Shown here: positions 3,476 through 61,241 of the stretch, in pieces
How positions within the stretch are numbered: the stretch's first letter is position 1
How the letters are laid out: every line of letters starts with the position of its first letter
Assembly (NCBI GenBank): GCA_028289585.1
Contig: JANQPI010000035.1
Span: 280,717-344,716, forward strand
Direction: 5' to 3'
DNA from: Candidatus Zixiibacteriota bacterium
GTDB taxonomy: Bacteria; Zixibacteria; MSB-5A5; GN15; FEB-12
Length of the DNA: 64,000 nucleotides
Notes under the pieces: generated by a model
Databases searched by the model: none
Seen by the model: only the letters and a program-made list of their open reading frames with translations
What the model was told of the DNA's origin: nothing
Translations under genes and position numbers: made by a program

Positions 3476-4894
3476 CTACGGGCATGTCGGTAGCGGTGTG
3501 AACGTGATGAAGAGGTTGTCGATCAGGCGCGAGAGATCGGGAAGCCCGATATCACCATCCTCGTTCAAATCCGCTTCATCCGGGCACACGAGGGGAAGAA
3601 ACGAGATGAAGAGATGATCGATCAGAACGCTGATATCCGGTAGACCTACGGCATCGTCAGGTGAGCCATCGATGTTACCTCGGTCATTCACACAGCACGG
3701 TCCACACGCCACCGGTGGGACACCATCCGGTACGAGCTTCAAGACTTGTCCATTACTGATGCCCGAGCCGAGGAGCACGATGTAGAGTTCGCCCTCAAGA
3801 TCTTCGCCAAATGATGCGAGCTGAAAACCGGGCAGGTTCAAGTCATTGGAGATGTCGACCGAGTCGAGGATTGCGCCAGTGTTGTCAAGGCGCAGGGCAA
3901 AAACCTCACCGGTGCAGTAATCACCATACAGATAGTAACCGTTCCAGCCAGGTACGGCACAACCACGGTAGACGTAACCGCCAGTTATCGAACACTTCCC
4001 GAAATTGTGGAAGTACTGGGTGATGGGATCGACAGTAAGGTTATTGGGATCGCAATTGTTGCTGGGATTGAAACAGGAGAATCCCTCCTTCAGTCGCCAG
4101 CCGTAGTTACTGCCTCCCGGTGAGCCGGCTGCTTCGAAGCTGACTTCTTCTCGAATCGCCTGGCCAACGTCGCCGATGATTTGGTGGCCCAGGAGACGGT
4201 CGAATGACCATCGCCACGGATTGCGCCAGCCGTAGGACCAGATTTCATCGCGGCCGGCTGTTCCGACAAACGGATTAGTTGCCGGGATGGTGTATCCGGA
4301 TGCGACCGCAACGTCGAGTCGGAGCATTTTGCCAACCAGCGAATCGAGATTCTGGGCCCGATTCCCGGGATCGCCACTCCCCCCTCCGTCACCGACGCCG
4401 ATGTAGAGGTAACCGTCAAGCGGCGAGAAGGCCATCATCCCGCCGTTATGGTTGTCAGCAAACTGCGGGATTTCCAGAAGTTGTTCTTCGGCCGTGTCAG
4501 CAACGTTGGGATTGGTGCTGACCTCAAAGCGCGAGATCTGTGTGTTCTCGCTGTTATTGATGTAGTTGACGTAGAAGCGTCCGGTCGACTGGTAGTCGGG
4601 AGGAAAGGCCAGGCCGAGAAGCCCCTTCTCGGAGAAACCATCATCGACTTTGGCCTCAATGTTGAGAAATGGCGTTCCCAGCAGTGTTCCATTCTCGATG
4701 ATTCTGATTACTCCCGGCTTCTCAAGAACAAAGAGTCGGTTGCTGTCGCCGGGCGCGAATGTCACGAAGATCGGTTCGCGCAAGCCGCTGGCGATCGGGT
4801 CGGTTGTCCACGAGGTGGTGGGCTGGGCCAATACCGGTCCCGTGAGGAGCAGGGTCAGAGCCAAGAGGCCGAGGGGTCGAGCAGACTTCGACAT
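3476..4894 (-). CDS. Secreted PQQ-type sugar dehydrogenase with dockerin-like tail
   Basis: A 472-residue protein with a signal peptide (MSKSARPLGLLALTLLLTGPVLAQ) and a six-bladed propeller of the glucose/sorbosone dehydrogenase (GSDH, YliI-like) family: GLREPIFVTFAPG, a GLLGLAFPPDY stretch, DNHNGG, GVGDGGGSGDPGNRAQ, and WSYGWRNPWRWSFD. These proteins oxidise aldose sugars in the periplasm with PQQ. The last 75 or so residues form a separate cysteine-containing module with two LPDISVLIDHLFISF / LPDLSRLIDNLFITF repeats and calcium-loop-like NEDGDIG, resembling type I dockerin. The start at 4894 was chosen over a longer open frame because a GGAGG site and signal peptide begin there. Confidence 0.88.
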   Translation of the reverse strand: MSKSARPLGLLALTLLLTGPVLAQPTTSWTTDPIASGLREPIFVTFAPGDSNRLFVLEKPGVIRIIENGTLLGTPFLNIEAKVDDGFSEKGLLGLAFPPDYQSTGRFYVNYINNSENTQISRFEVSTNPNVADTAEEQLLEIPQFADNHNGGMMAFSPLDGYLYIGVGDGGGSGDPGNRAQNLDSLVGKMLRLDVAVASGYTIPATNPFVGTAGRDEIWSYGWRNPWRWSFDRLLGHQIIGDVGQAIREEVSFEAAGSPGGSNYGWRLKEGFSCFNPSNNCDPNNLTVDPITQYFHNFGKCSITGGYVYRGCAVPGWNGYYLYGDYCTGEVFALRLDNTGAILDSVDISNDLNLPGFQLASFGEDLEGELYIVLLGSGISNGQVLKLVPDGVPPVACGPCCVNDRGNIDGSPDDAVGLPDISVLIDHLFISFLPLVCPDEADLNEDGDIGLPDLSRLIDNLFITFTPLPTCP

Positions 4895-57226: not shown

Positions 57227-57289
57227 TCAGCAAGACAATTTGTTGTGGTTAGTTGGAACAACCAGGCCGTACCGGCCGTTGCCGCAGCC

Positions 57290-59581
57290 ATGAGAAACGC
57301 GTTTCGATCTCTTGCCGCTTTCAAAATCGTTTTGCTGACAGCCACGCTATCCGGTTATGCCGCAACCGGGCAGTTAGCCGGTACTGTGATCGATGCCAAT
57401 ACCGGCGCCACTGTTCCTTTTTCGACCGTACAGATTGTCGGAACCACGCTGGGAACAGTTGCCGATTCGGCCGGTTCATTTACTGTCACGGTCGATGCCG
57501 GTACAATCTCGATCCTGGCTACCGCCCTCGGCTATCAGCCCCGCGTTGTTTCGGATATTGTGATTTCTCCCGTTCGCCCTGCCGTTGTTCGGATCGTTCT
57601 GATTCCCGATGCCGCAGTGATCGCTGAACGAATCACTGTCCGACCAGATTTCTTCGATCGTGCGACCGACGCACCTCTGTCGACAACGTCCCAGTCCGCA
57701 GAGGAGATCCGTCGGCTACCCGGCGGCTTCGAGGATGTGGTTCGGGCGATCTCGATCGTCCCGGGCGTCGCTCAGACGACGCAGGGGCGAAACGACCTGA
57801 TCGTACGGGGCGGCGCACCATCGGAGAACCTCTATCTGATCGACAATATCGAAGTGAACAATATCAACCACTTTGGAACCCAGGGCTCAGCCGGCGGCCC
57901 GATTTCGTTCATCAATCTCGATTTTGTCGACAACACGACCTTCTCCGCGGGAGGATTCGGTGCCCGCTACGGTGACCGTCTGTCATCGACGCTGGCGATC
58001 AATCTGCGCGACGGCCGCCGCGATCGGTTTGGTGGACGGGCAACAATTTCTGCAACGCGATTTGGCATCGATGCTGAGGGACCTCTCGGTGAGCGTGGTT
58101 CGTTTGTCGTTTCTGCGCGACGCTCGTATCTCGATTTGATTTTCCGGGCTAATGGCTTTGAGTTCGTTCCGGAGTTTTGGGATTTTCTCGCCCGCGCTGA
58201 ATTGGAGCCAACGCCTCGTGACAAGTTCTCGCTGCTGGCAATCGGTGCGATCAATAACGTCCGGCTCTTTAATGATGAAGCGGACGACCGGTTCGACAAT
58301 TCGCGTCGACTCGACAACGATCAAAACCAGGCGGTAACTGGAGTTTCCTGGCGACGGCTACTCGGCTCAGGATTCATTACCACGACATTATCTCAAACCT
58401 TCGTCGATTACGAGTTTACCCAGCGCGATTCGTTGTTAACTCCGTTTTTTGTTACCGAATCAACGGAGCTGGATATTGCACTTCGTGTCGATGGTCAGTT
58501 TCAGGTCAGTCCGGAGACAGAGCTCTGGTTTGGTGTACAGGGCAAGATCCAACGCGCTGATGGTGATCTTCTGCTGCGGGACTTTGCCGATCCCTACAGC
58601 GACTTTACCGACACGTTTAATATCGAGCAGCCATTCGACACGACCGGAACCAAGCTCGCTGTCTATACCCAGCTTTCACAGCGACTTGGCTCTCTGACGC
58701 TGACAGCGGGAGTACGAGGTGACTACTTTTCACTGATCGATGCTGAGCCGGAGGTCGCGCCGCGGCTGTCAGCCTCGTGGGAGGTTGCCTCGCCAATTCG
58801 TTTGAGCGTATCAGCCGGGCGGTATTATCAGGCGCCATCGATCATTTGGATTGCGGCCAACGAGTTCAACCGAGGACTCCGCCAGATGGGGACTGATCAG
58901 GTCGTGGCCGGGATTGAGATCCGTTTGCGCGACGATACGAAGTTCCGTGTGGAAGGATATTATAAAGACTACTTTGACTACGCGACCTCGATTGAACGAC
59001 CGTATCTGGTCATGGCGAATAGCGGCGGTGATTTCGGCGGCTCCGAGGAGGGCTTTGCGTCATTCGGCCTCGACTCCCTTGTTTCGGCCGGGGAGGGGCG
59101 CGCTTACGGCGTCGAGTTCTTCCTCCAAAAGAAGCTGTCGGAGATACCCTGTTACGGGCAGATGTCGCTTACGATCGGCCAGGTCGAGTACGCAGGGATC
59201 GATGGTATCTATCGCGATGGTTCGTTTGATCAGCGGGTGATCTTCAATATTGGCGGGGGCTATATCTTCAACGAACGGTGGGAAGTGTCGACCAAGTTTC
59301 AGATCTCCACTGGGCGTCCGTACACGCCGTTTGAAGCCGATGGCTCGCGGTCGATCGAGCGTTACAATTCGGTCCGCCTGGGGCCGTCACACGCTCTCGA
59401 TCTCCGGGTTGACCGGCGCTGGTTCTTCGGTGGTTGGGTGCTGACGACCTATCTCGACCTGCAGAATGTCTATGCGCGCTCGCAGCCGGAGATCCCATTC
59501 TACAACGTTCGCACCGGACAGGCAGAGACCGAGGACGGGCTCGGCCTGTTACCCTCGATCGGCATCACCGCCGAATTCTAG
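57290..59581 (+). CDS. TonB-dependent receptor
   Basis: An outer-membrane receptor of 763 residues from ATG 57290 (or 778 from GTG 57245; neither start has a clear ribosome site). A signal peptide is followed by a carboxypeptidase-regulatory-like domain ([33 protein letters not shown]). The plug has [43 protein letters not shown] and [19 protein letters not shown]. The 22-strand barrel ends ...SIGITAEF. Substrate unknown; oligosaccharide or siderophore uptake is typical. ExbBD/TonB are not nearby. Confidence 0.93.
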
Positions 59582-59647
59582 GGCCAGCCGGCCTCGCGAC
59601 ACGATCTTGCTCCGAGAGGAGGGATGGTGTAGTGTGGGGGCTGAGCT

Positions 59648-59730
59648 GCCCGGATGGTGGAATGGTAGACACCGGGGACTTAAAATCCCCTGGCCGCGAG
59701 GCCGTGCCGGTTCGAGTCCGGCTCCGGGTA
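59648..59730 (+). tRNA. tRNA-Leu (TAA)
   Basis: A class II tRNA of 83 bases. Acceptor GCCCGGA pairs with TCCGGGT (first pair G-U), the anticodon stem GGGGA/TCCCC holds CTTAAAA (anticodon TAA), the variable arm is TGGCCGCGAGGCCGT, and the T-arm holds TTCGAGT. CCA is not encoded. TTGCTC (59607-59612) and TAGTGT (59630-59635) 17 bases apart might be its promoter, but the -10 match is poor. Confidence 0.95.
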
Positions 59731-59906
59731 CGTTGTTCCAGCCTTAAAGGGCCCAGTTCCCGCACCAGGCTCTCCATCGTCCACAACGCAACCCGAAACA
59801 GCCGTAACAAAAAACTCACGAAACTGATGAATGGATGCTCCGTAACGAATGGTTTCTTGAACGGGGAGGCAGTTATCTGTTACCAGTTGCGGGAGGTTGC
59901 TCACCA

Positions 59907-61241
59907 ATGAAGAATCGATACGCTGGTCCGGTCAGGGCCCTGCTCATCGCTTTCGCGTTGCTCGCTGGAAGTAGCGATTTGGAAGCCTCGGCGCCGCCCC
60001 TGTTTTTGTCGGCGGTTGACTACGCTACCGTTGACGAGCCGGTTTCGGTAGCGATCGGTGACTTCAACGGTGATGCTCAGGTTGATCTCGCTGTCGCCAA
60101 CGAAAACTCAGGAGCGATATCAGTCCTTCTCGGAACTGGAGAAGGCCGTTTTTCTCAATCTATCGAGTATCCTGTTGGTACCCGTCCATGGGCGGTCTCG
60201 GCAGCCTTACTGAACGCAGATAGCGTGCTTGATTTGGTCGCCACGAACGGACTGTTTGGTCATATCTCAGTGCTCCTTGGTAATGGCGACGGCACGTTCT
60301 CCGATGCGGTAGATTACCCCACCGGGTCCGAACCGCGTCTGGTGGCGGTCGCTGACTTCAATCAGGATTCTGCGCTAGACGTTGCGACTGCAAACTTCTT
60401 CGACGACAGCGTATCGGTTCTTTTGGGGGTGGGAGACGGAACCTTTGGATCGGCGGTGAACTGGGGGGTAGGAAACAGTCCGTGGGCGATCGCGGCGGAG
60501 GATCTCGATCGCGACTCAATTGTCGATCTGATCACCACCGATTACAGCGGCAACACAATCTCAATCCTATCCGGATTAGGTGACGGAACGTTTTCGGCTG
60601 CCCGAACCCTTCCTGTTGGCAACGAACCGATATCGTTGGTTCTCGAAGATGTCAACGGGGATGACTTGACCGACATTGTCGTCGCTAACTTCCGCGGAAA
60701 TGATCTAACACTGTTCATTGCTGATGCAGGTGGTGTCTTCGATTCGACAGTTTCGATTCCTGTCGGATCGACACCTACCTCGGTCTCTTCGGGACTGCTT
60801 AACGATGATGCATTTCCCGATTTGGTGGTTACCCGGCGTAATGATGATGACATACTGATACTGCTGGGGGATGGTGGTGGTGAGTTCGACATCGTTGACT
60901 CTATTCCCGTCGGTGATCGGCCCTGGTCAGCATCGATCGGTGACTTGGATAACGACGAGGTAAGCGATATTGTTATCGCCAATGCTGCAAGCGATAGCGT
61001 TTCGGTTTTGATCAATCAGTCGCAGTGCTGTTCCGGTGACGTTGGAGATGTCGATTGTTCTGGCGACGTAGGATTGGCGGATCTATCGCGGCTCATCGAT
61101 CATCTCTTCATAACATTTGCGGAACTGTGCTGTTTTACTGAGGCAGATATTATCGTAGATGCGGATGTCGGTCTTTCAGACCTGAGTCGTCTCATCGACG
61201 CTCTTTTCATCTCGTTTATCCCCTTAGCGCCGTGTCCGTAA
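59907..61241 (+). CDS. Secreted FG-GAP/VCBS-type repeat protein with dockerin-like tail
   Basis: A 444-residue protein with a signal peptide (ALLIAFALLAGSSDLEA). Residues 45-360 contain about seven FG-GAP/VCBS-type repeats of 45 residues, each with IGDFNGDAQVDLAVAN-like calcium loops and ISVLLGNGDGTF strands, predicted to form a beta-propeller. The last 75 residues repeat the module seen in the sugar dehydrogenase at 3476: CSGDVGLADLSRLIDHLFITF and VGLSDLSRLIDALFISF. ATG 59907 with GGGAGG upstream is preferred to the longer frame from 59835. It is convergent with the RR-HD-GYP gene. Confidence 0.88.
   Translation: MKNRYAGPVRALLIAFALLAGSSDLEASAPPLFLSAVDYATVDEPVSVAIGDFNGDAQVDLAVANENSGAISVLLGTGEGRFSQSIEYPVGTRPWAVSAALLNADSVLDLVATNGLFGHISVLLGNGDGTFSDAVDYPTGSEPRLVAVADFNQDSALDVATANFFDDSVSVLLGVGDGTFGSAVNWGVGNSPWAIAAEDLDRDSIVDLITTDYSGNTISILSGLGDGTFSAARTLPVGNEPISLVLEDVNGDDLTDIVVANFRGNDLTLFIADAGGVFDSTVSIPVGSTPTSVSSGLLNDDAFPDLVVTRRNDDDILILLGDGGGEFDIVDSIPVGDRPWSASIGDLDNDEVSDIVIANAASDSVSVLINQSQCCSGDVGDVDCSGDVGLADLSRLIDHLFITFAELCCFTEADIIVDADVGLSDLSRLIDALFISFIPLAPCP

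Follow-up and report, generated by a model that had tools for sequence, protein, structure and literature searches.

Two related tails in one contig

The window (the whole 64,000-nucleotide stretch analyzed here) contains two genes, on opposite strands, that end in a similar tail. The first is a 585-amino-acid open reading frame (ORF) with a glucose/sorbosone dehydrogenase (GSDH) domain (116.9 bits); its stop codon is at 3476-3478, and the likely true start of the protein is at position 4894. The second encodes a protein with FG-GAP repeats. The features are as follows.

3479..3697, minus strand: dockerin-like tail, copy 1 (73 aa), C terminus of the sugar dehydrogenase (similarity, alignment A1, AlphaFold model, PDB fold matches)
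3599..3676, minus strand: copy 1, F-hand half 1, calcium loop NIDGSPDDAVGLPD (with a 2-residue insertion) and helix ISVLIDHLFISF (sequence, alignment A1, model helix 19-31)
3500..3571, minus strand: copy 1, F-hand half 2, calcium loop DLNEDGDIGLPD and helix LSRLIDNLFITF (sequence, alignment A1, model helix 52-64)
3848..4780, minus strand: glucose/sorbosone dehydrogenase domain (PF07995) of the copy 1 carrier (E = 1.6e-33)
4826..4894, minus strand: probable signal peptide MSKSARPLGLLALTLLLTGPVLA of the copy 1 carrier (heuristic and sequence)
61026..61238, plus strand: dockerin-like tail, copy 2 (71 aa), C terminus of the FG-GAP protein (similarity, alignment A1)
61047..61118, plus strand: copy 2, F-hand half 1 (DVDCSGDVGLADLSRLIDHLFITF) (sequence, alignment A1)
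61146..61217, plus strand: copy 2, F-hand half 2 (DIIVDADVGLSDLSRLIDALFISF) (sequence, alignment A1)
59907..61025, plus strand: signal peptide (MKNRYAGPVRALLIAFALLAGSSDLEA) and FG-GAP repeat body of the copy 2 carrier (sequence, Pfam, signal-peptide heuristic)

Copy 1 reads CCVNDRGNIDGSPDDAVGLPDISVLIDHLFISFLPLVCPDEADLNEDGDIGLPDLSRLIDNLFITFTPLPTCP. A preliminary description of this DNA had placed it at 3476-3710; the location is real, though the tail proper spans 3479-3697 and position 3710 lies four residues into the linker. It had also called the arrangement in the two genes identical. Both do share a tandem F-hand module of 71 to 73 residues, but the sequences are only similar: 62% identity, with E = 1.9e-19 when the genome is searched with copy 1, a value that excludes chance resemblance on two otherwise unrelated proteins. 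Copy 1 has the 2-residue insertion in its first loop, and copy 2 has an extra cysteine pair that is absent from copy 1. A TonB-dependent receptor gene (57245-59581) directly precedes the copy 2 gene on the same strand (57245-61241 together).

Fold and sequence place the tail among type I dockerins

The AlphaFold model of the tail (23 window and relative tails; pLDDT 92.4) has helices at residues 19-31 and 52-64, and its best 35 fold matches in the PDB are all dockerins or cohesin-dockerin complexes, with TM scores of up to 0.84. Across an alignment of 33 copies, position 1 of loop 1 is D/N and position 3 is N/D in every copy, both loops have D at position 12 without exception, and position 5 is mostly D. 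The tails thus have the tandem F-hand calcium loops of dockerins, with D or N at positions 1, 3, 5, and 12, together with two antiparallel F-hand helices in the model and its PDB matches. Given these fold matches and conserved loop positions, the tail is, by sequence and predicted structure, a dockerin type I module and no new fold; it would be expected to bind calcium.

Profile searches agree to varying degrees. Pfam Dockerin_1 matched 24 of the 33 tails (best 1.6e-7, several past the cut-off), and copy 1 itself scored 13.5 bits, under the cut-off of 22.9. Sequence matches to the dockerins of CelS and Endoglucanase SS were weak, and none of the curated NCBIfam models fits the tail, the best being CellobisidaseCelK at 1e-3. 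The tail had initially been described as unlike classical dockerin because each half ends in an LFIxF run and a cysteine pattern. This distinction does not survive, since profile and fold both indicate dockerin type I: LFIxF is the end of a normal F-hand helix, and is this lineage's variant of, for instance, the YMFTGGP or YLFRGGP of its relatives.

Two other classes were considered and rejected. A T9SS C-terminal sorting domain is a poor fit, as neither window protein matches TIGR04183 or PF18962 and the fold is helical. The tail also lacks the terminal hydrophobic helix and basic tail of a sortase-anchored protein, ending a few residues past its last cysteine.

Cysteines in the tail occur largely in pairs. 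Within the host genome (alignment A1), columns 12 and 39 both hold cysteine in 20 copies and neither does in 13, with no copy holding one alone. The corresponding counts are 29 both, 4 neither, and 0 single for columns 2 and 40, and 30 both, 2 neither, and 1 single for columns 1 and 80. Among 95 tails of other genomes, the 12/39 pair covaried again (22 both, 65 neither, 8 single; P = 1.6e-14, a value inflated, like the other covariation P values, by kinship among the rows); covariation of the 2/40 and 1/80 pairs was not reproduced in the same 95 tails. From this covariation we infer up to three disulfides in the tail, one of which would clasp the two ends of the module together. The strong stabilization suggested by the covarying pairs would also suit a tail that is a mere calcium- and disulfide-stabilized cap, partnerless, that protects the C terminus or mediates self-association. 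We regard this as very unlikely, because it leaves unexplained why helix residues are conserved in both halves on proteins that are otherwise unrelated, and, as described below, why the tail is swapped for a T9SS sorting tail and why dockerins and cohesins are lost jointly.

Dockerin tails are abundant across the phylum

As a query, copy 1 gave 49 matches at E <= 0.1 in the host genome (3.15 Mb, 55 contigs), and a 33-row profile (A1) found 46 copies. The tail was also found in 124 of 132 genomes of Candidatus Zixibacteria, mostly in dozens of copies each. It is therefore far from confined to the two window genes; such confinement is what the preliminary description had said would refute its reading. 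Note that the A1 profile under-counts dockerins in families f15 and f16, which use the variant ...YLVSYLKGIGPPP, and PF00404 counts were therefore added. A divergent dockerin, GDANxxGxVxGxDVTYLVSYLKGxGPPP, was likewise missed by the tail profile in genomes G112, G115, and G117 (L254, L256, L259, L263, L265).

The module is C-terminal in nearly all carriers. One internal copy lies about 235 residues into its ORF, upstream of a lactonase-like propeller (L047:1124-3013), and two apparent tail remnants occur at G000:C21:461223-461351 (L067) and G000:C20:382902-382970 (L069), one with an internal TAG stop and one in a 43-codon frame. A simple heuristic detected a signal peptide in 36 of the 41 ORFs read; of the other five, one is truncated by a contig end. 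The carriers are otherwise unrelated: they include S8, M6, M1, and M43 peptidases; FG-GAP, LVIVD, PKD, and beta-helix proteins; an alpha/beta hydrolase with CBM96; a lactonase-like propeller; and sortilin/BNR proteins. No glycoside hydrolase family appeared in Pfam scans of 36 tail-bearing proteins, which gave peptidases, propellers, and FG-GAP instead.

Cohesins accompany dockerins and carry T9SS tails

A cohesin-like partner, whose co-occurrence had been proposed as a check, is indeed present: cohesin domains (PF00963) were found in 122 of 129 genomes of the phylum. The host genome has eight cohesin matches in eight different proteins, only two of which pass the Pfam cut-off, and beta-sandwiches that resemble cohesins can mislead such a search. 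There are 5 to 8 cohesins against approximately 49 dockerins. All eight of these proteins end in a T9SS sorting tail, as do 10 of 10 sampled from other genomes, and SprA, the T9SS translocon, is present in 28 of 28 genomes. The preliminary description had also named, as a refutation, full alignment with standard dockerin I together with ordinary cohesins. This is largely what we found, except that the cohesins are T9SS-tailed and are not those of a cellulosome.

Three T9SS-tailed cohesin proteins of the host genome (L145:10181-12796, L147:4548-7133, and L149:3171-12278) also have a conserved internal dockerin-like module (RGDINLNGLAYEIADAVMFTRYF...SDVNNDGNPLTVADL) approximately 205 residues upstream of the C terminus, and similar internal modules occur in other families (L325, L332, L334, L335). 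It is possible that such proteins are self-linking surface adaptors.

The dockerins might instead build a classical cellulosome-like complex on multi-cohesin scaffoldins that degrades polymers. The carriers do include peptidases and the CBM96 hydrolase, and complexes of this kind have been proposed before, in Ca. Stygibacter (PMC8542988) and as the 'planctosome' (PMC6461901). However, many carriers are not enzymes (FG-GAP proteins, LVIVD propellers), and among the 36 scanned tail-bearing proteins no dockerin sits on a glycoside hydrolase. The eight host-genome matches, each in its own protein, include no multi-cohesin protein and hence no scaffoldin combining several cohesins with carbohydrate-binding domains. 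A cellulosome-like complex is accordingly improbable here.

Numbers of dockerins and cohesins rise and fall together. Dockerins per Mb correlated with cohesins (rho = 0.66 over 28 genomes; 0.60 over 17 family means) and inversely with T9SS tails, counted as first-look candidates because scored matches ran to at most 140 (rho = -0.69 over 28 genomes; -0.51, P = 0.04, over 17 family means). With a possible kinship among families f6, f15, f16, and f17, these cross-genome correlations represent few independent events. Five genomes of families f6 and f17 (G007, G119-G122) have 0 to 1 dockerins and 0, 0, 0, 0, and 2 cohesins, together with 124 to about 300 T9SS tails each (132 to 306 when counted as candidates), 3 to 5 times the usual density per Mb. 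They have lost dockerins and cohesins or never had them. Since these genomes have many T9SS tails and nearly no cohesins, cohesin matches are no mere by-product of T9SS tails; by these counts, they track dockerins and not T9SS tails (rho = -0.51). In three genomes (G025, G104, G105), tails are present and no cohesin was detected.

Orthologous enzymes exchange dockerin and T9SS tails

Orthologues of the GSDH carrier (49 to 52% identity) end in a dockerin in eight genomes, including the host genome, and in a T9SS tail in G121 and G122, two genomes without dockerins. A larger sample comes from M6 peptidases: among 54 complete proteins, 34 end in a T9SS tail, 20 in a dockerin (7 of which were missed by the regex classifier and assigned by eye from their tails), and none in neither. 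On the M6 tree, tail type changes at least 8 times, compared with 12 to 19 changes when labels are shuffled. Tails are thus inherited and yet switch repeatedly, with one switch falling within close paralogues of a single genome (L287 and L289 of G044).

Such exchange on orthologous enzymes points to a role in sorting or anchoring. The proposal of a lineage-specific tag for sorting or anchoring therefore stands in part: many secreted proteins carry the tail at their C terminus, where it trades places with another such tag, but it is a dockerin and no new fold.

The main rival to docking casts the tail as an export or sorting signal in its own right, read by the T9SS or another secretion machine as the equivalent of a T9SS C-terminal domain without any cohesin. 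Its C-terminal position, the swapping of both tails on the same enzymes, and their inverse counts across genomes (rho = -0.69) would all fit, as would the three tail-bearing genomes without a detected cohesin; tail-bearing proteins otherwise have no known route across the outer membrane. A pure sorting signal does not account for a complete dockerin fold whose two halves both keep the calcium-loop positions, for at least one internal copy (L047), or for the disappearance of cohesins along with dockerins in f17 and f6 despite abundant T9SS tails. We consider this reading unlikely, if the strongest of the alternatives. In its fuller form, the tail would be the helical, calcium-dependent counterpart of a T9SS tail and would guide a large share of the phylum's exoproteome across the outer membrane and onto the surface; this seems to us distinctly unlikely.

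Proposed docking to T9SS-anchored cohesins as a route to the cell surface

We propose that dockerin-tailed exoproteins are probably displayed by docking to cohesin proteins that are themselves anchored via the T9SS. The tail would be a disulfide-stabilized dockerin type I module serving as a surface-display tag. A signal peptide would take the tail-bearing protein across the inner membrane, after which it would cross the outer membrane. The T9SS would place cohesin proteins on the cell surface as sockets, and dockerin-tailed proteins would dock to them as plugs. The sequences themselves show the dockerin fold, its C-terminal placement, its number and spread, the accompanying cohesins with their T9SS tails, and the tail exchange; calcium binding, disulfides, cohesin binding, surface location, and the outer-membrane export route of the dockerin-tailed proteins are the putative parts of this scheme. 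Against it speak the scores below the Pfam cut-off of most host-genome cohesin matches, the small number of cohesins relative to dockerins, and the three tail-bearing genomes in which no cohesin was detected. There would then be two ways to the surface, via a protein's own T9SS tail or via a dockerin that makes use of a cohesin anchored by the T9SS, and this would account for the substitution of one tail for the other among orthologous enzymes.

If docking operates in this way, most of a Gram-negative candidate phylum shows much of its exoproteome in two steps, with few sockets and dozens of plugs. Cohesin-dockerin coupling would shift from a speciality of cellulose degradation to general T9SS-linked surface display, and the many dockerins without cellulosomes in these genomes would be explained. 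Tail exchange between orthologues is, furthermore, a simple evolutionary test of the function of a C-terminal tag.

Comparison with known systems

The tail resembles dockerin type I (PF00404), as in CelS and other clostridial cellulosome dockerins, in its tandem F-hand loops and helices, its length (~70 aa), its C-terminal position on secreted proteins, and its predicted fold. It differs in that both halves have LP at loop positions 10-11 and an LIDxLFIxF helix, in its covarying cysteine pairs, of which there are up to three, and in its carriers, which are mostly not cellulases. The Pfam profile finds 25 copies here against 49 by homology, missing about half. The T9SS type A sorting domain (TIGR04183, PF18962) is likewise C-terminal, occurs on the same enzyme families, and is apparently interchangeable with the dockerin tail. 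It is a beta-sandwich of a separate sequence family, whereas the tail here is helical and dockerin-like.

In the literature that we searched, no paper links Zixibacteria to dockerins or to type IX secretion, and neither the phylum-wide scale nor the tail exchange was found there. The closest precedent is Ca. Stygibacter (Cloacimonadota), for which a cohesin-dockerin complex was proposed with dockerin-tailed secreted enzymes and a scaffoldin that has a T9SS-type C-terminal domain (PMC8542988). That system has a few enzymes and one large scaffoldin, whereas almost all genomes of the phylum studied here encode dozens of carriers, with one detected cohesin per cohesin protein and with evidence of tail exchange. 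Genome-based predictions of non-cellulolytic cohesin-dockerin pairs, on peptidases and on surface proteins, have also been made for the peptidase 'planctosome' of Nemodlikiaceae (Planctomycetes; PMC6461901) and for ANME archaea (PMC9012536), but the anchors there are lamin-tail or S-layer domains, with no T9SS link. The type of coupling is thus already known; in Zixibacteria, it is probably genome-wide and interchangeable with another surface tag.
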